DNA of 64,000 nucleotides from Gongronella butleri (Eukaryota > Mucoromycota > Mucoromycetes > Mucorales > Cunninghamellaceae). Positions 9,776 to 63,005 of this stretch are shown here, one piece after another; the first letter of the stretch is position 1, and every line of letters begins with the position of its first letter. The stretch covers positions 1-64,000 of the forward strand of contig JAIWZP010000083.1 in assembly GCA_025201375.1 (NCBI GenBank), read 5' to 3'. The position numbers and the translations under genes were made by a program. The notes beneath the pieces are model-generated. The model saw only the letters and a program-made list of their open reading frames with translations. It made no database searches and was not told the DNA's origin.

Positions 9776-11932
9776 ATGGACTCGTACTTGTCATCAATTG
9801 ACGACTATATTCAAGAGCAGGATATGCAGCAGCCACCTTCGCAGCAGCAGCAGCAGCAGCAAGGGGCCTTTTTCCAGCAACAAGCATCGCAACAACAGCA
9901 ACAACAGCAACCGCAACAGGCGCCATTTGACGTGTGGGGTTCCTTTGGGCCTGATGGCTTTCCGCATCAATCGCCCCCATCACAAGCCGCCGCGTCCATG
10001 TACATTCCCATGGATTTCTCGCAACCCCCTGCTGCTCCGGGCATGTCGTACCCGATGGCGCCCAATGCGTTCATGGCACCGCCACCACACGGCCAATTGC
10101 CACCTGGCCAAGGCTTCCCGCCCCTTCCTGGCTTTGACATACACGGCAATCCCATCAAGATTCGCAAGAAACCAGGCAGAAAGCCAAATCCAGCATCGCC
10201 GGCTCTGCGAAAGGCCCAAAATCGAGCCGCTCAGCGCGCGTACGTGTCCTTTCCTTTTTTTTTTTTTTTTTTTTTTTTCTTTTTTCCTTGTGTGTGTGTG
10301 TGTGCAACCCTCGCACGTACTCGCCGACAATTTCCCACATGACATGAATTTGGCAACAGCTCATCCTTTTTTTTAATTTTTTTTTTGGGGGGACCCAGTT
10401 TCCGTGAACGCAAGGAGCGCCACCTCAAGGATTTGGAAAACACTATCAAGACGCTGCGCGAGCAACGCAATTCGACGGCCAAAGAGCTGAAAAAGTCGCG
10501 CAATCGACTGGAAATGTATCGCGTGGAGCTGTGGTATCTGCGTGGTCTGCTGATCACGCTTCAATTCATGTGTATGCACCACAATATCGATCTGCCGCCA
10601 CATATGCCTTATCTTGCTGAGGAAACCCTGATTGACATGGCAAAGACGCATCCACATGCGATTGAGGCGTATGTCAATGCCTATACACGTAACAATCGCC
10701 ACTTGAAAAAGCCCAATCTGTCTGCACAGCTTGCAGCCATGGACGATCGCGACTCCAATGCATCGCCCACGCCACCACGTGGTGCTGCTGCGCCCACTTC
10801 TATGTCTTCGTCGTCGGCGGCAGCCGCTGGTATCCAAGAGAATGGTACACAGGGTGGTGCAATGGCCGCCAAGACACCCAATGCCGATGGCCAGGCAATG
10901 GACCATGATGGCAACAACAATGGACATGTGCACCATCAGCAGCAATACCACCCGTCGATTGTGGACGACATGACGTCGGGCAACCATAGCAGCCTGCCGC
11001 CTTTGATACCTCCTCCCGACGATGATAACCAGCACCACGCCATGACGATCAAGCAGGAAGAAGATCACGACGATGTGACCATGGCCGACGATCGTGAGGC
11101 GTCCGTGGCGTCTTCTGGTCAACAACAACAGCGCAGTGTCACGCCCTTTTCCCACGAAGACGTGGCAAAATGGACAATAGACGATGCCGAGGATGACGAC
11201 GACGACGATTCGCAAAAACAGGCAAACTCCATTTCCAGCATGGGCGCCATCCAGCGCATCCGTTTGCAATTGCGTGTCCAGTCGACCCTGTCCAGGATAA
11301 GCAGCGACAAGATGCCGTCCGCGCGTTTGCAGCCTACATTGTTGCAGCTATCCATTCCGCACGACCCGCGCATTGACCTGATTCCCGCGCCTCAGATGCG
11401 TGACCGCATGATCATCTTCCGCGACCAAATGGATTACGACAGCTGCTTCAGCTTGCTGCTCAATGGCGCCATTTATCACGGCGGCGACCCCACCCTGAGT
11501 CAGAGTTGGGAATTGCCACCCTCGTTCCACAGCGAGTACTGGTTCCTCACCTCACGCTACGATATCGACACCACCAATCGCTGGCGCAGAATCAAGGGAT
11601 TGACAGAAATCCCCCCAGGTGCCCCGGATCGTCATTGGACACCACCCCCTCCCTCGCGTGGCGCCGTCGACACGCCGTCCACTGCAACGCTCATGGACCC
11701 AACAGGCATGTTCTCCCCAGAACACCACTCCCAGGGCTCAGCCACAGGCGCACCATCTCCACACGCACAAAATGACCCCACCCTGGTCAAACACCCGTTG
11801 TACGACAAGGTGTTGGGGGTCGGCTCGCCCCCAGAATCACGCCCACCCATCACATCGCCCACATTAGATATCATGATGACCATGATGCAGTCTTTATCAA
11901 GCGGTGAACACGACCAACATTCACATCCATAG
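9776..11932 (+). CDS. bZIP transcription factor with DUF3425-like C-terminus (copy 2)
   Basis: Two exons, 9776-10239 and 10399-11932, encode 665 residues. The N-terminus has CAG/CAA-coded glutamine runs (residues about 22-50) and a Pro/Met-rich part. The basic region has the N-x-x-A-Q-x-x-F-R signature at about 149-157, interrupted by an intron in the same Ala codon as in copy 1. A zipper-like heptad segment follows. The middle is acidic and His/Asn-rich. At about 430-590 there is a DUF3425-like region with Pro-His-Asp-x-Arg-Ile-Asp, Arg-Asp-Arg-Met-Ile-Ile-Phe and Ser-x-Trp-Glu-Leu-Pro-Pro motifs. Likely a nuclear dimeric regulator. Copies 1 and 2 are only 2.1 kb apart and probably arose by local duplication; copy 2 has lost, or never gained, the three introns found in the C-terminal half of copy 1. 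Confidence 0.9.
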
Positions 11933-27995: not shown

Positions 27996-30800
27996 ATGGA
28001 CCGCATCAAGATGGAAGGCCCACCGAGGGACAAGCGGCAGCGTGTCAGCCGTGCGTGGTAAGAAAAAGGGGTTGGTGGCGGAGACGTTTTGGTAAAGCGT
28101 GTCTATTTTTTTTGCTCACTTTTTTTTTTATTTCCTTTTGTTCTTTTGGTGTAGCGAGCCGTGTCGTGCCAAAAAAACAAAGTGCGACGGCCTTGCGCCT
28201 GCGTGTACAGTGTGCATGTCGCAGGGCATTGCCTGCGTGTATCAGCCCGTGACGAAAAAGGTAAATAAAGAGGTCACCCAGGGGAGAAGGGGAGCCTTTT
28301 TTATGATTTTTGGGACCCCCCAAAAAACAAGGTTTATTGTTTGCAAGATGCGGGGCGGAATCATGGAAAACACCGATCAAAAAAAAAGTGTGCCGAGAAC
28401 ACGATCTGATCTCTTTTTTTTTTTATTCTTTTCGTGTAGCGAGGGCCGCCCAAGGGGTACATTGAAGCGATTGAAGGGCGATTGCATCGTTTGGAGGCAT
28501 TGATTAGCAGTGTGGCGCAGGAGGACGATCCACGGTTCAGTGCCATCATTTCCGAGCTTAGTGCACCGCTGCAGACGGCCAATGGCGAGATGATCAGGCC
28601 GAGAAAGGCCATTGTGCCCGATTCGGAGAACTCCAATGCGGCACCGCCACCCATGATGCCCACGGCAACTTCATCGTCGACGACAATGGCACGTGGTGAT
28701 GAGAATGACGATTCAATGGCGGCTGTCGCTGCAGCCAATGCGGCGGCGTCGCTCATGCCGGCCAACAGTAGCAACAGTAGCAACCATAGTGGGGATATGG
28801 ACACCAACGAGAATGCAGGCAACATCAGTGTGGATGAAAGCGGACAATTGCGATACTATGGCAAATCGTCGGGCTACTATATGTTGCGTGACAGCCGCAC
28901 GTTTAAAAACGGGGCATTCCACTTTAAAACACGTGACAATGAAGGCATGAATCTCGAACAGGCCATGGTCGATCCATTTGAATTGCCGCCCCAAGATCTC
29001 GCAGACCACCTGCTCTCCCTCTATTTCGCCCATTTCTACACGTTCTTGCCAATCGTTCACAAGGACACGTTTATGAACGATTACCAAGGCCGCGGCACCC
29101 ACCCACCCTCGCGCCTGCTCCTCAATGCCATGTTCGCCGTCGCCGCACGCGTGTCGCCCGACCCACGCGTCCTCGCCAACCCCGACGATCCAAAAACAGC
29201 TGGCGACCACTATTTTGAGCGTGCACGCATCCTCCTCGAGTTTGAATACGACGATTTCAAAACGTCCACGGTCCAGGCCCTTCTCCTCATGAGTAGCCAT
29301 CAAAACGGCGCGCTCAAATCCATCCGTGGCTGGATTTACAGCGGAATGGTAAAAGCAATGTCCCTTTTATTTTGATTTCTTTGTTTCTTTTTCTCATTCT
29401 CTCTTCCTCTCCCTTCTAGGCATTCCGAATGGTGCAAAATCTTGGTCTGCACTGCAATTGCGACAGCTGGGATCTGACGCACGAGCAAAAAGAAGAGCGA
29501 AAACGCGTGTTTTGGTCGTGTTTTGTGGTGGACCGTCTGTCGAGCGCGATGCACGGCCGGTCACCCATCATCGACGAGCGCGACTGCGACGTGCCATACC
29601 CACGCGACAATGACGCGTGTGACCGCCAGCAGCCCGTGCAAATCATGGATACCTTTCTGCCCATGATTCATCTGGCCGAAATCCTTGGCAACGTCCTCCG
29701 CGAGGTCTACACCGTCCGTGGACGCAATCTGCTCAAGCGTCTCCCATCCCCCGATGGCCTGATCGGAAGACTCGACAAGTAAGTTGGAAACAAAAATAGA
29801 GAAAAAGCAAAAAAAAAAAAAATTACCAAAATTCTCAATTTCTCTCCCTTTTTTTTTCCCCCCATTTAGATCGTTGAATAGCTGGATGGCCAAGCTGCGC
29901 AGCCCTGCGCGGTACCGGCCACCCAACACACGCATCGGTGAGATGGCCAAGACACCATCACTTGCGGTTTGCCAGATCCACATGATGTTTTACACGACAT
30001 TGATCCTGTTGCACCGGCCATTTATCCCGGGGACCAAGCAGCAAGGCAGCGGCAAGTCACACGCGTCGGCATTCCCGTCCAAGGAGATTTGCAATTACGC
30101 GGCAGACAAATTGCTGGACATCACGGTCAGCATGATGAACGACGGCAAAATCAATCACATCAACAACTACACATTGTACTTTATGTTCACGGCAGGCATC
30201 ATCTTCATCCACGAGGCCGCGTCCAAAGACCCAGAGGTCAGCTTTGATGCCAAAATCAGCATCAACAAGATTCTGCGCGCCATGGAGACAGTCGAAATCA
30301 CCTGGATCACCTCGACGCGCCATAGCAGCATCCTCGGCGAGCTCGCCGGCCTGCGCGACATCGACCTCGTCGTGGGCGAGCGGCCCAATCCCGCCAATGC
30401 CAAACTGGCCTCCATTGCCGTCCCAAATTCGCCAACGCTCATCAAACCCGAATACCAATCCACTTCGTCGCCACTCTCGTCCACTCGCACACTCCCCTTG
30501 CCGCCAATGCAACAACAACAACAACAACAACATCCGCAGCAACTTCAGCAGCAGCATCCGCCACCACCAAACGTCCATCAGGCCAATGTCATTGATTATC
30601 ACCAATATTACGACGACCAGCAAAGCTCTGCCAGCTCCATGTCGCCTCGCCAAGAAAACACACTCAATTCGCCATCACCATCCACTAGCGCCGCTAATGC
30701 CTTTGATCTCAATGGCACAGCCTACTATGGTGTCCCCGCATCTTTTGATCTTGGAGAATGGGATTACTATCTCAAAATGACGCAGCAGCAGCAGCAATAG
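27996..30800 (+). CDS. Zn2Cys6 fungal-specific transcription factor
   Basis: Five exons (27996-28057, 28155-28260, 28440-29348, 29420-29778, 29870-30800) give 788 residues. A Zn2Cys6 cluster lies at residues 21-48, spaced C-X2-C-X6-C-X6-C-X2-C-X6-C; its first Cys codon is split by intron 1. A basic linker (Lys-Lys-Arg-Gly-Pro-Pro-Lys-Gly-Tyr-Ile-Glu) leads to a short coiled coil for dimerisation. A low-complexity Ala/Asn/Ser part follows, then the fungal-specific middle homology region (about 220-470) with Phe-x-Pro-Ile-Val-His-Lys-Asp-x-Phe, Ala-Arg-x-Leu-Leu, Gln-Ala-Leu-Leu-Leu-Met-Ser and Arg-x-Phe-Trp-Ser-Cys-Phe. The C-terminus is Gln- and Ser-rich and ends in Gln-Gln-Gln-Gln, probably an activation region. 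A nuclear regulator; the target is unknown, although the layout resembles XlnR-type factors. Confidence 0.92.
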
Positions 30801-53440: not shown

Positions 53441-56220
53441 TGGTATGCAAACGTAAAAAAAAAGGGGGGGAAGGTAAAGAGTGAAAGAAGCTAAGAAGAA
53501 TGAAAAAAAAGGCCGCAAAGCGCGAGCGCGGCGTTTTTTTTATAGGCGACGGGCCGGGTGTTCCAGAAACTTTGATTTTGCGGCCAATGAAGCGCATTGT
53601 GGACGCCAGCATGCCCCCCCCTTTCGCACTTTTTTGATCGATACCAACCTCTTCCATTCATCGATATCATTGTCACGCGACACAAAAGACTCTCCCAATA
53701 TACCCTGACCCTTTTTACCCATCACAATGACGTAGCCTTTCTTTTTTTTGTTTCGCCATGCCCTCATTCCTTTTCCCGCCCTTCCCACATCTAGTAAAAA
53801 GAAAAAAAAAAACAGCAGAATCGGCCAAAAAATGACAAAAAAAAAAAAAAAAGATTAGGGTCAGTAGTGACCATTGGCCACCGACGCGTCGCTCGTGCCC
53901 TGTTCTTCTCCCGCACGGCCAATCGACCAGCATCTTTGTGTCGCCGTGGCCCTGTACACAAAACGTGGCGGGAATTTAAAATAATCCCAAGCGTGTCGGA
54001 GCGCGACATGCTTCCCATGACCTTCTATCGGCTTGGCTATACCTTTCGGAGTATCACCCAACTCTCGAAACTTCCATACAAACTCATTGGCATCTCTGAT
54101 TCCATGGTGTACGAGAAAGAAAAAAAAGCTTAAACAGCAATGTCATCATGGAATCGAACCACAATCAAAATATGATAAAGACCCCCATGTTGCAATTGCC
54201 TTTTTATTGTATAGGACACGCTGATTCTTTGAAACATGGCCTGCATAGAGTGGTTGATTCAGTGCTTGTCGAGAAAACGATCAAAATGGCTTTGACGACA
54301 ATCATTTACCATTGCTCTTGAGCTGCATTTTCCGATCGGCCTTGGTTTTTAGACTGATGCTTTGTACCAATTGAAGCACACCAATGTCAAGTTTTCCTGG
54401 TAGTCGATCAGTGCAATCTTGAGAACCGTTTAATGCCACTCTGGGAAAATTGAATTTTCGAGTTGTCTTGTCCGTGATCTACCATTGAGATTGCAAACTT
54501 TGTCAACTGCTGTTGGCATCTTGCAGAGACACCTGGTCCAAGTTTGACAGTGAACGAATCTCTGTATGGCCAGATGTCTCGAATTTAAAACGTATTGGCA
54601 AATCCATGCTTATTTTTCCAACTCTCTAAAAAGGTATCAAACTCACAGCAAAATATTGTGTGCCATTGTCAATTGCGCGCTGCAAAATGCTGTTTAACTA
54701 AATGTGAATCAAGTGTCTGCGAGAAAATCTTGATTTGAGCATTTTTACGGGTTTTGGGTCGCCTGTCGCTGAAACGATGACCTGCCAGTGCATCCACTCT
54801 TTGAAAAAGTAAATCCAAGGCTTTTCGTTCGAATGATCCTACCCTCGCGGTGCTCCCGACCACTGGATGGCGTGCACTGACGACGTTTAAAAACGACGAT
54901 TTTTCCAAGGGGTACAGTCGAGGATTTGAAAACGGCAAGAACTGAGGTCCTCAGATCGCGACACCATTCAATCACATGATACAACACATCTGTTCACCGA
55001 TAGAAATGTAATAAAAACGAAGGCTCCATCGACTGCTTTTTGCGCAAAATGAATTCTGCTCCGTGTTTTCGCTACAAGGTGATCTCGACAACAAACGATC
55101 ACAGCACCTGCAAACGCGCACCATCAAAAAGAGCAGAAGCTAGTGCGTACGTGGATATTCATGATCATTGAAAAATGCAAGTTTTGGGCTAAAGAAACGC
55201 TCGACAAAGATCATTATAAATTTTGACGCGTCAAAAAAGCGCGTCAGCTTGGTTATTTCTTCTCGGTTTTTTGCATTATATGCACACATCTGGAGTCTCT
55301 CTTTCTGGTGGGCGTGTTAAAAGTGATTTACAGCACGTTTTTCTCGTGCAATTCACTTGTAAAGTTTTGATCAAAATTGCTCGTTGCTCGTCAATGAGCA
55401 GATCGATTGCGCTCCTTTTTACGCTTTTCGTCGTTTTCATCATTCGATGCACCTTGCGTGCAAATGTGGTGTCATTCTGAAGACCTGATTTTCTAATTTT
55501 TGATTTGGGTGCTTGCGACGACTAATTTTGATTTGAGCGTGGCGCGCCAGCAAAGATTGAGTCCCACTTTATTCTCCAGCTCTTCATATTACGTCAAGAT
55601 GATTTTGGCCGCCATTGGATGTCACCTTGGCCCCCAACAATAATGAATACAGCCATTTTCTTAAAAACAGCGTTTTGATATAATTTCACTTCAAACCACA
55701 AACTCTCAAGCAAGTGGGAAATGATGCTCAAGAATGCCTCTCTAGAATGGTGTTTGCTTTTCACGGTCTAAACATAGCAAGTCCATGAAAACATGGTCAA
55801 AAGCGCAAAATATTGCCTTTGCGCGACTGATGTCTAATCGCGTGCTGTGTTTCGACGCTAAAAATAGGGACAGCAAGATTTATGGATAGAAAAGAAGCAT
55901 AATAAAAACGACGATGATGCATCAAATCAAAATGCAAAAGGGGATTTCGTCTAAAAACTCAATGTGTGGCAATGATGCACGGGCAGATGTATTGTTGAGT
56001 GCATTTTTTGTGCATAGTGTATGTGAGTGGACTTGTTCCTCCTTGATGATGGGATGTGCTTGGATGTTTCGCTCGTTGATCAGGCGTTTGGACGTGTAAA
56101 TACTTGAGCCGCGCCGCTCCGTCGCACTGGACGCGTCTGTCCCCTTAGCATGAGGCTTGTTGATCTCTTCAAGCTTGGTCACGGATGCAATTGGCGATAT
56201 GGGCAGCTGCATTTGCCTCT
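53441..56220. other. Gene-poor island 4, left part
   Basis: The first 200 nt are the trehalose-gene leader. After about 53880 the sequence is AT-rich and holds only short frames. An 88-residue frame at 53867-54133 has no recognisable domain. A minus-strand partial copy of repeat family 1 lies near 54890-55050. No intact gene until the multi-HTH frame begins on the minus strand at 56221. Confidence 0.5.
54890..55050 (-). repeat. Dispersed repeat family 1, partial copy D
   Basis: On the minus strand the order TTTTGCGCAAAAAGCAG, TATCGGTGAA, TATCATGTGATTGAATGG, then CCCCTTGGAAAAATCG matches copies B and C in the same order and spacing. In frame it gives Leu-Tyr-His-Val-Ile-Glu-Trp. The flanks diverge quickly. 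Confidence 0.6.
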
Positions 56221-57243
56221 TTATTTTTGCCACGGTCCACCTTGAGCGGCCACAGCGATCACCACGCTGTGCATTGGCATCCCGCTGAGCAAGAAGTGCT
56301 TGATCAATTGTTTTTCGCGCTCTGTCACGAATCTAAATTGACACATGGATTGAGGAGACGAGTTGGGCCGCTTTGAAGGCGATTCGATGAGATTGGCTGC
56401 TTTTTTGAAGTAGTACATGCGCCGTTCGGAGACACCGCATGCTTTAGCCACAGCCGCCAAGGACTCGCCTTGTTCAAGACGTCTTTTTATTTCTTTCTTT
56501 GTGGCTGGCTTGATGTACCTTGAGCCAGGGAGCGCGATGTTGCGTGCTTTGCATATCTTTCGTACCAAGTAGGGGCTGACGTCACACGCTTTGGAAGCCA
56601 TGTCTGTTGACATTCCCCTGGCAACGCACTGTATGATCTTGTCAATTTTGTCGTTGCTAAGTTTTTTGTTGTTGATGCCAAACTTTCTTTTCACCATTTT
56701 GACCAAATTGAGCGTCGTGCCGCAATCAGCCGCGATCTTTTTGAGCGGCTCATCAGCTAGGAGTTGCCTTTGGATCTTTTCGATCGCGTCTTGTTCATAC
56801 GTCGCTTTCTCGCCAAGGGTATGGATGTTGTTGTCGAATTTCGGAAATTGGATAGCGTTCGGTGATATTTTGTTAATGCAAGCTGTTTCACTCACAGACA
56901 CGCCGTCCAAAAGGTTTTTTATAATCTGTTGCTTTTTGACGTCGCTGAATCTCGGCCTGGTGAAGCCGCGTTGCGATCGATATCTTAGGACCGTGCTTCT
57001 GCTGACACTGCATGCCGCCGCCGTATGGCTAGCCGTCTTGCCCTGGTAAGCAAGTTGTTGGATTTTTTTGATCGTGGACGTGCTGCACCTTTTAATGCGC
57101 TCATGTGTTTGGGGAAGGTTAAACTTGCGACGCACATTGTGAACAACTTTGGTGCTCACTCCACATTGATACGCCGTTTTAGTCATTGACATGCCACCCA
57201 ACAAGCATGCCTTTATCTCGTCACATTTGGTATCAGAGTACAT
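56221..57243 (-). CDS. Protein of about seven tandem helix-turn-helix repeats
   Basis: One intronless minus-strand frame of 340 residues, with the Met at 57243 placed after a pyrimidine leader. The whole protein is built of related units of about 40-50 residues, roughly at 6-45, 57-97, 100-140, 150-193, 195-240, 244-285 and 303-340. Most fit a pattern Lys-x-x-Ile-x-x-x-Leu-x-x-Gly-x-Ser/Thr-x-x-x-x-Ala-x-x-Cys-x-Val-Ser, a Val/Leu-rich third helix and a basic end. This is the trihelical fold of Tc1/psq-type and resolvase-type HTHs. The last unit is cut short. No transposase catalytic core or dimer domain is seen. It sits alone in an AT-rich repeat island, yet the frame is intact, so it may be under selection or recently acquired. 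DNA binding is inferred; the role is unknown. Confidence 0.7.
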   Translation of the reverse strand: MYSDTKCDEIKACLLGGMSMTKTAYQCGVSTKVVHNVRRKFNLPQTHERIKRCSTSTIKKIQQLAYQGKTASHTAAACSVSRSTVLRYRSQRGFTRPRFSDVKKQQIIKNLLDGVSVSETACINKISPNAIQFPKFDNNIHTLGEKATYEQDAIEKIQRQLLADEPLKKIAADCGTTLNLVKMVKRKFGINNKKLSNDKIDKIIQCVARGMSTDMASKACDVSPYLVRKICKARNIALPGSRYIKPATKKEIKRRLEQGESLAAVAKACGVSERRMYYFKKAANLIESPSKRPNSSPQSMCQFRFVTEREKQLIKHFLLSGMPMHSVVIAVAAQGGPWQK

Positions 57244-58609
57244 TGATACAGTAAAAACAGTTCCAGGAAAGAAAACGAAAGATAGAGAGAGAGAGAGAGA
57301 AAAAAAAAAAAAAAAAGGAGGGGAGAGATGGCGTTTTGAGTTTTGTTTCAAAAAGCGCGTTCGCGCCACCCCAATTCAAGTCGAATTTCGGCATAAAACG
57401 TCCATCACTTGCGCGCGTCAATTTCAAGTCTACTTTAAATAGAGACCATCAGATCAATGACCACCACATCCCATAAAATAGCAAAATCCAGTCTTTTTGT
57501 ATTTTACATCGCCATTCTTGCTTTTGGATTTGCTTTTTTTGAAACATTCGAAACAAACAGGGCAGAATTTGTCATCTTTTTGCCACCTGGAGAGAAGCGC
57601 TTCGATACTTTTATCAGCTGGACACTGCGGATGGTCAATCGTACGTGAACACCATTTTCAAATCAAGAATTTGACATTGACTCGCTTCCTTTTCGATTGA
57701 GAATGTTCCAGACGACGTTGTCCAAATGACCCCAAATTTAAAGCATGCATGAACAGACCAAGTCGAAAACCAGGTTTTCAAGTTTTTGCGGCGATCGGTT
57801 GGTGTGATCCTGAGATACGCGTTGAAAAATTCTGAGCCAAAATAATTTTTTATGTATTTTTCGATGAACTTGCGCGAGTGACCCCAAGTCGGGACCAGAT
57901 GAGATGGTGGGAATAGGTTTCCAACGGCTCCATGTATTTTCTTGGCGGATCTGCCAATACGCGACATTTTATTCAAACACTCTTGATTTTCTCTTTTTTT
58001 TTTTTTCAATCGCACCTACTGCGAGGGCAGACATTGAATTCTCAAACATGCTGCGGAGCTTTTAACATAAAAGGTCGACCACTGGTTCAAATTTGAAAGA
58101 GAACGGATCACTCAGAATGTCAAAAAGCTCGATTTTGCTGCACTTTACGGGTTTCATGATAGGCTTTCCAAAATTGGCTGCGCCGACGCGCATCAAAACT
58201 TGATGCAGATGCGAGTTGGGTGTTTGTGAGTTGCGCCCGCAGGGCAAAAGATGTCTCTTTTGGCTGAATTTGTACTTTTTTCTTTTGACCATGGCCGCCC
58301 GCTGACAGACAATGCACCTGGCGACCAACTTGAGAGAGAGGTACGCGTGGCAGGTCGCTGTCTGACCTCTATGTCGAAGATCATGCAATGAAAAGAGGAA
58401 AAAAACGCCTGCACCATCCAATGGTGCTCTGATTTCACCATCGGATTACCAAAACAGACCTGTCAAAGGGGCAATTGAGCCCAAACAGACGCCCAAACGA
58501 AAAGAAAGAATAGGAGCCCCGCCTTTTTTTTTTTTTTTTTTTTCTCTCTCTCTCTCTCTCTTTCTCTTTTTTTCAACCCTTTTGTTTTTTTTTCCCCCCT
58601 GGTGAGCGC
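57244..58609. other. Gene-poor island 4, right part
   Basis: The multi-HTH leader (CT run at 57285-57320 on the minus strand) is followed by AT-rich sequence. A 63-residue frame at 57457-57648 has one hydrophobic segment but no other support. A 126-residue minus-strand frame at 57635-58015 shares a 16-nt word and some encoded residues with 43700-43745, suggesting a second decayed repeat family. A CT run near 58535-58565 leads into the SUMO protease start. Confidence 0.45.
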
Positions 58610-60368
58610 ATGAATTCGCCGTCGACAAAGCGATCCATGCACCACAACAGGGATACGGACGATATTCACCGCAGCAAGGTAAAGCAAACGACCAATGGAG
58701 CTCGATTTGCTAAATGTGTCTTTTTATGCCAGCCGCGTGGCTACCATGACGGGGCTCGACCATTGACCATGGATGGCCACCATGTGGGTCAAAAGCGCCG
58801 CTCGAGCAGCCAGTCTGGTGTACCGATAGCTGTACCGACCAAAGCCATTTCCAATGTAAGCATTTTTACCCAGAAATGACATTGTTTTGCCCTCTTATCC
58901 TTCTTTTTTTATAGCGGCATGACCTCTTTTACATGACAAACACGTCTGAATCGTCGTCCCCCCAAGTCAAGAGAAGCCGTATGTTTCCCATCATTCCGTG
59001 GTCAATTGGTCCCTGATCTGCTCTTTTTTTTTTTGCCCGTTTTTTTAGAAGCAATGCGCGATGCTGAAGGCAAACAACGTGGTGGCGCCATGTCAAAGGG
59101 TATGGAATGCGATTCAATGGGTCGTGATTGCCCGCTTATGATGATCTACTTTTTTTTTTTATAGCGCGCTTCAAGAACAAGAGCAATGAGGTATTTTTTT
59201 TTAAAAAAAAAAAAAAAAAAAAGTGAAAATGGGTCTTTTCTTACCTTTTTGTTTCTAGGTGCAGGACCAATTCCTTCGGACGACGTCTTATAGTGATATT
59301 TCACGGCGGAACAATGTAAAAGGAACATGTCAAGTGCGAAAAGAGTATCCAATTGACAACCTTTTTTTGTTCATTTTAGGGCCCTCAAAGAGGTGGGCGC
59401 ACGAGTTTTACGCCATCCGGATTAGTCAATGTTGAAACGCGCGTCAAATCACAGCAGCCTGGATTTCGAATGGACGCGCCCACGCCTAGTTTGGCCAAGC
59501 GCGACGGGGTTTCGGCACGGGAAGCGCGTCGCACGTCGACTTCCGGGGTTGTGGATATTGAGGGCCAGCCATATTCACGGCACGCGCCGCGGTCGTCGAT
59601 CCGAGCGGCCGAGTACATTGATGACGAGGACGATTTCTACCCGTACGATCGTCGCTCGAATTCGCCACCGTCCACCATCGAATCTCGCCAAAAAGCGAAG
59701 CGCGATGCCGCATTCAAAAAGTTGCTCAGCTCGCGTGCAAAGTCCAAGGCGTCCACATCGACTACCACATCCACCACCAAAAGCGCCTCCTCGCCCCATC
59801 GCGCCGTGCCAATCCACGTCTCATTATCCGATGACGACGAAAACGACGATTTCGTGGTGAAAAAGGAACCGCTGCGGCGCAAACGGCCCCGATCCGTGTC
59901 CCTGTCACCACCAGCTAGGTCACCACCACTTTTATCCTCGTCAAAGCCATCCACCGCGTCAAAACCACGATCCCCGTCGCCATTGGCGCCACGCGACTCG
60001 AGCGACGACGACGACATCCCCCGCATGATCATTCCAAAGCGACGCACGCCCGTCGCCGTCATATCGTCCGCCGCTACCGCAGCCATTGGCTCCTTTTCAA
60101 GATTCTTTGGTACCTCTATCGATAAGACCGACACGTCACCAACCAACAAAAAGCATCTGCGCGACAACAATGACGGCGATATTGACATTGTAGGCACTAC
60201 CTCAAGCAATACCTACACTTCGCCACCGAGGCGCAATCCTACACGCCAAGCAGCCCAAAAGATCAGGCATGATACCCTCACCGACACGGAAAACGACAAA
60301 AAAATGGACCTTTTCCATGAAATCGACGATGATGGTCACGATGACACACCTACTCGAGAATTGCAAGC

Positions 60369-60409
<41 letters not shown>

Positions 60410-60903
60410 TCGCGCAAATGGCTCATACTTTTTTTTTTCTCCCTCTTAGCCTCTTCACCTATCCATTTGATCATCGAAAAGGCAGCATCACGGTGACAGG
60501 CGACGATCTCAAGCGACTAAAGCCCGAGGAATTCCTAAATGACACCATCATCGAGGTCTATCTTCGAAAGTAAGGCCTGGACAATATGCCCATTGGACCA
60601 TCCTCACTCACCCTTTTCTTTATTTTACAGGGTTCACGACGAGTACAAAGAGGATGCCAATTATAAAAGAGCCAAACTCGCAGACGACACGCACATCTTT
60701 AGCCCCTTTTTTTACACGCGCCTCACCAAAGGCATCATTGACAAGTAAGGCTCGCTTTCCCTCGGCCCAATGGACATTTTATTTACGCTCCTTTTTTTTA
60801 AAAAAGTGATGTCATTGACTATGACGGCGTGCAAAAGTGGACAACCGACATTGATCTTTTTTCCAAAAAATATGTCTTTATTCCTGTCCTGGAGCAGTAA
60901 GTC

Positions 60904-61860: not shown

Positions 61861-63005
61861 ATGTCGTTGCGTTGGGGTATTCTGGGCACGGGCAATATTG
61901 CCAAAACTTTTGCAAAGGCGTTGCAGGTGGCGAAGCATGGCGAGCTTGTTGCAGTCGGCAGCCGGTCGCGTGCGTCTGCGGTCGCGTTTGGTAAGGATCA
62001 CGGGCACCTTGCCGAGTCGCAGTGCTACGGGTCGTATGACGAGGTGCTAAAGGACGCCAACGTCGATATTGTGTACATTTGCTCGCCACACCCGCAGCAT
62101 CACGCCATGGCACTGCAGGCTGCACGCGCAAAAAAGCACATGCTCGTCGAAAAGCCATTGGCCATGACCCAGCGCCAGGTCGAGGACATTGTCGCCGCCT
62201 GCAAAGAGAACGGCGTCTTTTTAATGGAGGCGTATATGTACCGCTGCCACCCGCAAACCCAAGCCCTCGTCAATGCCATCCGTGACGGCACCATTGGTGA
62301 CGTCCATCTCATCCGCGCAAATTTCACCTACGATGGCATTCCATTTGGCCCCGAATCACGCCTCTGGCGCAATGAAATGGGCGGAGGGGCTCTCATGGAC
62401 ATTGGCGGCTGTAAGCGAAAAAGAGAGAGAGAAAATGGGAGGAGGAAAAAAAAAAAAAAAGTCAGAAGCTCTCCCATTCATCCTATCCTTTTTATTTCCT
62501 CACCTCAGATCCCATGTCGCTGGCGCGCCTGCTGGCGGGTGCTGCGCAGGGCCGCGGCTTTGCCAACCCCAAGGAGATCAAGGCCGTTGGCCGCGTGCCA
62601 TCGGATTCAAAGGTGGATGAGTACGCCATGGCGTCGCTAGCGTTTGATGGCCAGGTTTCGGCACAATTGTTTGTGAGCATCCTCGCTGACTTGGACAGTG
62701 CCGTCGAGGTCTGGGGATCCAAAGGCTCGATCCGCGTGCCCAACCTGTGGCGCCCTGATTTGGCCGTGCTCGGCCCCGTGCAACTCGAGGTCAAGAAGCA
62801 CGGCGAGGAAAAACAGGTCATTGCCGTGCCCCTCAGCGAAACCAACCTGTTTGCCTACGAGGTCGACGCCATTGCCGATGCCCTGCTCACCCAAGCCAAG
62901 CTCGAGTGCTCCGCCATGTCCCACGATGATACACTTGGCCAAGCTGCAGCCATGGACGCCTGGCGCCGCGAAATCGGCCTCGTCTACCAGGAGGACAGCC
63001 AATAA
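61861..63005 (+). CDS. Gfo/Idh/MocA-family NAD(P)-dependent oxidoreductase
   Basis: Two exons (61861-62410, 62509-63005) give 348 residues. The N-terminal Rossmann fold has Gly-Ile-Leu-Gly-Thr-Gly-Asn-Ile-Ala (GxGxxA, residues 6-14), then Ile-Cys-Ser-Pro-His-Pro-Gln-His and the Glu-Lys-Pro-Leu-Ala family motif (about 97-101). Glu-Ala-Tyr-Met-Tyr-Arg-Cys-His-Pro follows. The C-terminal alpha/beta domain contains Gly-Gly-Gly-Ala-Leu-Met-Asp-Ile-Gly-Gly-Tyr-Pro. This subset resembles dimeric dihydrodiol dehydrogenase and NADP D-xylose dehydrogenase, which oxidise sugars or trans-dihydrodiols; the substrate here is not determined. No targeting signal is seen, so it is probably cytosolic. Confidence 0.93.

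Follow-up and report, generated by a model that had tools for sequence, protein, structure and literature searches.

Tandem helix-turn-helix arrays of Gongronella butleri: a family of probable modular DNA readers with a recently disabled member

Judged from the sequences, the gene studied here was disabled recently and belongs to a hitherto undescribed family of Gongronella butleri proteins made of tandem helix-turn-helix (HTH) units; the uninterrupted members of this family would act as modular DNA readers, an interpretation to which we assign a probability of about 0.7. The window, that is the whole stretch of DNA analysed, comprises bases 1-64000 of one contig (C93) of the 33.0 Mb, 110-contig genome to which the contig labels used below (C1, C44, C52, C67, C93 etc.) refer. 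The family is large, with a common unit anatomy and a near-invariant tail, one of its arrays has grown by unit duplication and several members have decayed. In the clade of the window gene, positive selection is concentrated on the positions that textbook HTH numbering assigns to DNA contact.

A sequence-only reading of the window had proposed an intact, intronless gene of about seven HTH repeats without any further domain. The 340-residue frame at 56221-57243 is real and lies on the minus strand (Table 1), the plus-strand reading of this interval being ruled out by stops all along it, and the gene can be read without an intron because the frame is uninterrupted. The AlphaFold2 model of the window protein (8 sequences; 20 helices, mean pLDDT 76.5, pTM 0.32) consists of six full trihelical HTH units, with two helices of a seventh after them, well above the minimum of three trihelical units on which that reading had staked its proposal. 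The unit HMM detects seven units (unit 3 weak, unit 7 shortened). At least nine Pfam families pass the curated cut-off, among 25 of 27 families listed (HTH_23, HTH_28, HTH_7, HTH_38, HTH_Tnp_ISL3, HTH_Tnp_1, HTH_29, GerE and DUF3071), and no catalytic family, zinc-finger family or KRAB box is found among these 25. Relatives carry a C-terminal stretch and tail, and the lack of a further part in the window protein is owed partly to the break described below.

Table 1. Features of the window gene and its flanks (window positions; residues are those of the 340-residue frame).
Feature	Position	Strand	Basis
Open frame, 340 residues + stop, ATG at 57243	56221..57243	(-)	translation, unit HMM, model
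HTH unit 1, residues 4-40	57124..57234	(-)	helices of model
HTH unit 2, residues 55-89	56977..57081	(-)	helices of model
HTH unit 3, residues 101-137, HMM-weak	56833..56943	(-)	unit HMM + model
HTH unit 4, residues 151-187	56683..56793	(-)	helices of model
HTH unit 5, residues 197-233	56545..56655	(-)	helices of model
HTH unit 6, residues 246-283	56395..56508	(-)	helices of model
HTH unit 7, helices 1 and 2 (residues 308-333)	56245..56322	(-)	frame change at unit end
Displaced rest of gene, another frame, ends in family tail	55922..56332	(-)	homology to relatives' C-terminal part
13-residue tail IEFLDEIPFCILI + stop, out of frame with array	55922..55963	(-)	translation, tail pattern
Upstream stretch common to five other family loci	57245..57518	(-)	69-77% identity, in pieces

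The gene is not intact, contrary to what had been proposed. Near 56,250 the frame turns to unrelated residues where the homology of the relatives continues, and the remainder, tail included, is encoded in another frame that extends to 55,922 and closes with HIEFLDEIPFCILI and a stop codon at 55922-55924. Window positions 55925-56332 match residues 302-430 of one relative (P0002) at 40%, and the four relatives retrieved by protein search are 424-448 aa long versus 340 residues for the window frame. An intron in place of the frame change was considered and rejected by inspection of frames and alignments rather than with a splice predictor, because the two frames overlap, homology reaches the change from both sides and a splice would remove just tens of bases that hold conserved residues. 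The framework omega on the window copy's own branch (0.47) does not exceed that of the rest (0.54, p 0.5), and the break is therefore late, or possibly an assembly error. We consider it unlikely that the frame change is such a sequencing or assembly error and that the window copy, to which alone this applies, is a working member: the displaced tail still reads IEFLDEIPFCILI and the window-branch framework is under constraint like the rest, as an error would have it, but similar breaks occur at C78, C100, C52:225.4-226.9 kb and C44:108.5-109.4 kb. By its sequence the window gene is a family member that was disabled not long ago, and the scientific interest lies in the surrounding family.

The single genome examined contains at least 23 uninterrupted open reading frames (ORFs) that run from ATG to tail, each with 4-11 detected units. 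They lie on C1, C22, C31, C34 (two), C44 (three), C45 (two), C46, C52 (three), C54, C67 (six), C94 and C99, with clusters on C67, C52 and C44; a 24th ORF at 225.4 kb of C52, which covers the 3' half of a frame-split gene, was left out of the 23. Copies are thus not mostly broken with dN/dS near 1, a point on which the sequence-only reading had made its proposal depend, as 11 or more loci that are broken or fragments face these 23 and the framework omega is 0.53. The broken or fragmentary loci are the window copy, C78, C100, C44:108.5-109.4 kb, C52:225.4-226.9 kb, C46:130.8 kb, C99:20.6 kb, C93:74.3 kb, C34:710.8-712.3 kb, apparently C45:693 kb and, on C85, a piece consisting of the tail alone; the family being large, all counts are lower bounds. 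Unit 1 starts a few residues after the ATG in most members. The predicted structure of one relative (P0005) has 8 trihelical units, and by model and sequence the full-length relatives end in a disordered C-terminal stretch with the conserved tail. The C1 gene reaches eleven units, part of which coincide with a 141-bp coding tandem repeat of 6.6 copies (locus positions 1216-2150) with a 47-residue period, the unit HMM having 40 positions. A frame at C45:617.5 kb (484 residues, five HTH units, proline-rich C-terminus) has no tail and is possibly an older relative.

A Pfam scan of 23 members, comprising 22 of the 23 uninterrupted ORFs and the window protein, returned transposase HTH models among the 25 of 58 families listed, and these 25 include no transposase catalytic core, no zinc-finger family and no KRAB box. 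Neither the suggestion that the gene is a domesticated transposon part nor the concern that other copies might be joined to a transposase core is borne out within this list. CENP-B_N matches just 9 of the 23 members (best E 2.3e-5). In the genome at large, 11 of 20 HTH_23 matches fall outside known family loci, on contigs C2, C19, C20, C22, C27, C28, C31, C44, C45 and C69, and several of them, in frames of 320-361 codons, may be transposases.

All 23 uninterrupted ORFs end in the consensus I-x-F-L-D-E-I-P-F-x-[IV]-L-I-stop or a close variant. P at -6 is present in all 23; I at -13, I at -7 and F at -5 each occur in 22 ORFs; the F at -11, the two L at -10 and -2 and the final I (-1) are each found in 21, the D at -9 in 20 and the E at -8 in 19. 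The C34:310751 ORF retains the last part only (GEIPFVVLI). Because the 13 residues are encoded by 22 distinct nucleotide versions that yield 13 amino-acid versions, with an omega of 0.06 (eight-ORF set, fixed-site codon model), selection acts on the peptide. A strict tail pattern matched the genome 23 times, at 18 uninterrupted ORFs and five broken family loci, and never matched the reversed control; the remaining five uninterrupted ORFs carry variants of it. Loosening the pattern gave 30 genome matches (one in the control), and of the seven additional ones two are at family ORFs (C1 and C67:95391) and five elsewhere. These five, considered as possible tails outside the family, look like chance matches. 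The 62 residues before the tail contain the SUMO-acceptor-like motif psi-K-x-E in 9 of 23 members, a number reached in none of 2000 shuffles (mean 1.5), although the nine are not independent events, since the members that bear the motif are related. A hydrophobic end after acidic residues, together with psi-K-x-E sites, makes a SUMO-linked partner one possibility.

To locate replacements within the units, residues were mapped to the unit HMM, and rates could be estimated for 39 unit positions. Replacements cluster at unit positions 17-19, 28, 29, 32 and 33, which we take to be textbook HTH positions 1-3, 12, 13, 16 and 17, assuming as anchors of the numbering the Ala at 5, the Gly at 9 and the hydrophobic residue at 15. 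The contact set comprised textbook positions 1, 2, 11, 12, 13, 16 and 17 (unit positions 17, 18, 27, 28, 29, 32 and 33). IQ-TREE partition runs give relative rates rather than omega, and we wrote a GY94 fixed-site likelihood with shared branch lengths and without a gene conversion term. The main set consisted of the eight uninterrupted ORFs of the window's clade; the frame-split C52:225437 (3' half) was part of the earlier runs on dS, replacement positions, separate pairs, one IQ-TREE partition and the C67 clade and was left out of this set, with similar results. Since dS among the listed pairs of the clade ranges from 0.34 to 1.00, some pairs are near saturation, which does not apply to the three closest ORFs.

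For the contact set, whose choice followed inspection of per-position rates in these very genes, omega was 2.03 (p 1.3e-13 against 1; eight ORFs, 49 codons), and the same ORFs gave 0.61 for exposed non-contact and 0.44 for core positions, classes set from the consensus and not from coordinates, and 0.99 for linkers. Four recognition-face positions yielded 2.82 (p 5.8e-17), and the pair that we take as equivalent to the Hin contact residues Ser174 and Arg178 yielded 2.91 (p 1.1e-9); a literature search on contacts made by these two Hin residues found nothing. The contact omega was 2.59 (p 2.9e-8) in the three closest ORFs alone and 2.05 when the window copy was added to the eight. Taken singly, 5 of the 39 positions have a lower bound above 1, namely 17, 18, 28, 29 and 32, all of them contact positions, with omega values of 4.5 and 6.7 at 28 and 29; the contact positions that fail singly are 27 (0.82) and 33 (1.35, 0.90-1.82). 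None of 20,000 random seven-position sets reached 2.01 (highest 1.82). From unit 1 to unit 7 the contact omega was 2.40, 2.40, 2.12, 1.13, 1.65, 2.72 and 2.40, and the lower bound exceeded 1 in every unit except unit 4 (1.13, 0.88-1.65).

Counting of pN/pS in seven separate pairs, which comprise 14 of the 24 ORFs, gave 1.02 for contact positions, 0.52 for framework, 0.86 for linkers and 0.14 for the tail. Contact exceeded framework in all seven pairs and exceeded 1 in four; none of 100,000 random position sets reached the contact pN, and the ratio permutation gave p 0.00066. In the C67 clade the contact omega of 0.84 was above that of exposed positions (0.38, p 1.1e-5) and not different from 1 (p 0.26), and positions 29 and 28 ranked first. 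The duplicated units 5-10 of the C1 gene showed a contact pN/pS of 1.59 and 0.27 at other positions, in overlapping comparisons that are descriptive. Among nine branches tested for framework omega, C99 had a reduced value (0.34, p 0.012) and C46 a raised one (0.76, p 0.024). Together with the trihelical units, contact-position selection in six of seven units argues for the extended modular DNA reading that had been suggested for the window gene. We do not favour the coating of DNA that was suggested alongside: were it independent of sequence, it would not explain why base-reading positions change under selection.

On this basis, we propose that the four to eleven trihelical units of a member, joined by linkers, would lie along DNA with each recognition helix reading a few base pairs, such that the array reads a long composite site. 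The units would bind DNA in a sequence-specific manner and new copies would gain new targets, while the constant, disordered C-terminus with its tail may recruit one common effector; targets would then diversify under positive selection and the connection to the effector would stay constant, a pattern that resembles KRAB zinc-finger evolution in another fold. By analogy, the purpose that we find most likely, although at less than even odds, is recognition and repression of changing targets, for example transposable elements. Marginally less probable, and doubtful on balance, is a fully developed fungal counterpart of the KRAB system, that is a conflict-driven HTH repertoire that passes transposon or satellite targets to a shared silencing machine through the tail. 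New specificities would arise there through unit duplication and selected change at 17, 18, 28, 29 and 32, the long site would be read unit by unit and silencing through the tail might be SUMO-dependent.

KRAB zinc-finger genes form, according to passages of two studies (PMC5363842, PMC3126818), a large lineage-specific family with tandem clusters, pseudogenes and module arrays that change in number; the same passages report that duplicates are often under positive selection at DNA-contacting residues, and in PMC3126818 few such contact changes are noted in primate orthologs. The G. butleri family resembles KRAB zinc-finger proteins (and PRDM9) in family size, clusters, broken copies, change of array number, contact selection and one constant, putative effector element, with contact selection found in the window's clade and not above 1 in the C67 clade. 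It differs in having HTH units instead of C2H2 fingers, for which no shared ancestry is claimed, and a short C-terminal tail instead of the N-terminal KRAB box.

Could the contact positions simply drift? If DNA binding had been lost or replaced by a scaffold role, with the fold kept, constraint on the DNA face would be relaxed, and near-neutral linkers (0.99), the values of 0.84 in the C67 clade and of about 1.0 when the seven pairs are simply counted, and the frequency of broken copies would all be expected. Drift, however, brings omega near 1 and not to 2.0-2.9 (three contact sets in the eight ORFs, with p between 1e-9 and 1e-17), let alone to 4.5 at position 28 and 6.7 at 29, and the other exposed positions remain at 0.61; we regard relaxed constraint as improbable. 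Even less probable is a selfish element or its remains, in which transposase HTH parts would have been amplified alone and contacts would track element ends. Transposase HTH models are among the Pfam matches, Tc3 and IstA chains among the structural matches, and a dispersed repeat adjoins the window gene, but no catalytic core appears among the Pfam families listed, the copies bring their own upstream regions, and a constrained protein tail stands where the catalytic domain would follow.

Ordinary transcription factors that diversified after duplication, for instance as regulators of mating or environmental genes, without any conflict with mobile DNA, are a more serious competitor, although we judge them unlikely. 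Regulators with several HTH domains exist (Pax, Myb and Reb1 are among the structural rows) and nothing in the analysis points to mobile DNA as the target; against this, family size, clusters, broken copies and repeated contact selection would, by analogy with what parts of PMC5363842 and PMC3126818 describe, fit conflict-driven families better. In animals, C2H2 zinc-finger proteins are the known example of modular DNA-reading repertoires that conflict drives. Should the G. butleri arrays prove to be modular readers of this kind, they would constitute a second, independent case, in a fungus and with another fold and another effector, from which general features of such systems could be derived, and they would point to sequence-based recognition of mobile DNA in Mucorales and offer naturally occurring DNA-binding arrays that are modular, zinc-free and four to eleven units long. 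If in addition the resemblance to the KRAB system extends to silencing of transposons or satellites, the array could have a readable, programmable code.

The whole-protein search returned five proteins including the window's own, the four others all being from G. butleri, and the nearest named proteins are entries of this Mucorales mould labelled "hypothetical protein". A family-alignment search (7994 candidates scored) found at least three proteins, again all from G. butleri, and a tail-region search gave two candidates, neither of which reached E 10. These searches need shared five-residue words, and the family-alignment search omitted many known members of the same genome, so that they may well have missed relatives in other Mucorales. 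A peptide-pattern search of IMG/VR matched 95 stretches with none confirmed, and tblastn against phage records gave no match. Literature searches by title and abstract, a scope that largely excludes subscription papers and preprints, found no description of such a family, nor is it mentioned in the main text of the G. butleri draft genome paper as searched by term (PMC9117579). HTH arrays are not described in the consulted portions of a survey of fungal transcription factors (PMC5415576), and an HTH-array family is likewise absent from those of two repeat screens (PMC6344855, PMC5472282).

With the window model, Foldseek found no match at E <= 0.001 among 451 PDB rows, and 23 of 1100 among the BFVD viral models, with TM-scores of at most 0.41; the latter, which we read as other HTH-rich proteins, include proteins of Mycobacterium phage DS6A and Bacillus phage PM1 and suggest that phages contain unannotated HTH-rich proteins. 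In a PDB profile search with the family alignment the best match was 8vd6 (CAP REPEAT; E 4.3e-12 over five repeats, with no single repeat significant alone), which differs in its near-identical 33-residue repeats that look designed, as judged from the aligned sequence alone. The second match was 2lvs (E 2.7e-6), also the top Foldseek PDB row (E 0.09), which we take, from its PDB title, to be of the Sulfolobales Cbp1 family. Cbp1 of Sulfolobales, as passages of PMC10883916 describe it, consists solely of HTH domains, three in number, arranged in order along one CRISPR repeat, each of which contributes and one of which recruits a partner. Common to this archaeal protein and the G. butleri family is that tandem HTH domains make up the protein; the family differs in its 4-11 units, its paralogs, contact selection and the tail. 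Unlike the HTH parts of transposases and recombinases (Tc3, Hin, IstA, Sleeping Beauty, Tn7 TnsD), it has many units and no catalytic core was seen, be it DDE/D or other, among the listed Pfam families or in the models. The fission-yeast Cbp1/Cbt proteins, CENP-B-like domesticated transposases with N-terminal tandem HTH domains according to a passage of PMC10085805, differ in keeping a DDE transposase domain, and TAL effectors use 34-residue two-helix repeats that read one base each, in place of three-helix units.

The upstream stretch of the window gene (Table 1) recurs at three family loci on C52, one on C94 and one on C46. ORFs on C44 (two), C52 (two) and C94 are preceded by a promoter element, GGCGCTCTTTGAAACRAAAACGCC, whose ends form an inverted repeat (GGCG...CGCC); considered as the mark of a wider regulon, it was set aside, as its five genome matches (up to 3 mismatches) are all upstream of family genes. 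Just downstream of the window gene, positions 54796-55548 form a dispersed repeat without a long frame that occurs at no fewer than 38 other genome places with 67-73% identity (40 of 810 candidates scored). Between this repeat and the gene, positions 55559-55897 are 81% identical to C93:74662-75007, which adjoins a decayed family fragment at C93:74258-74635, and C93:74258-75007 is, as judged from this similarity, a local duplication of the 3' end of the window gene. Elsewhere in the window, 3 of 10 long ORFs scanned had Pfam hits (DUF3425, Fungal_trans and GFO/IDH/MocA oxidoreductase). Plus-strand frames noted in that scan are 10385-11929, 28482-29372, 59470-60573 and 61861-62637, of which 59470-60573 has no Pfam hit and an end that resembles, by eye, the beginning of a SUMO protease domain of the Ulp1 type.
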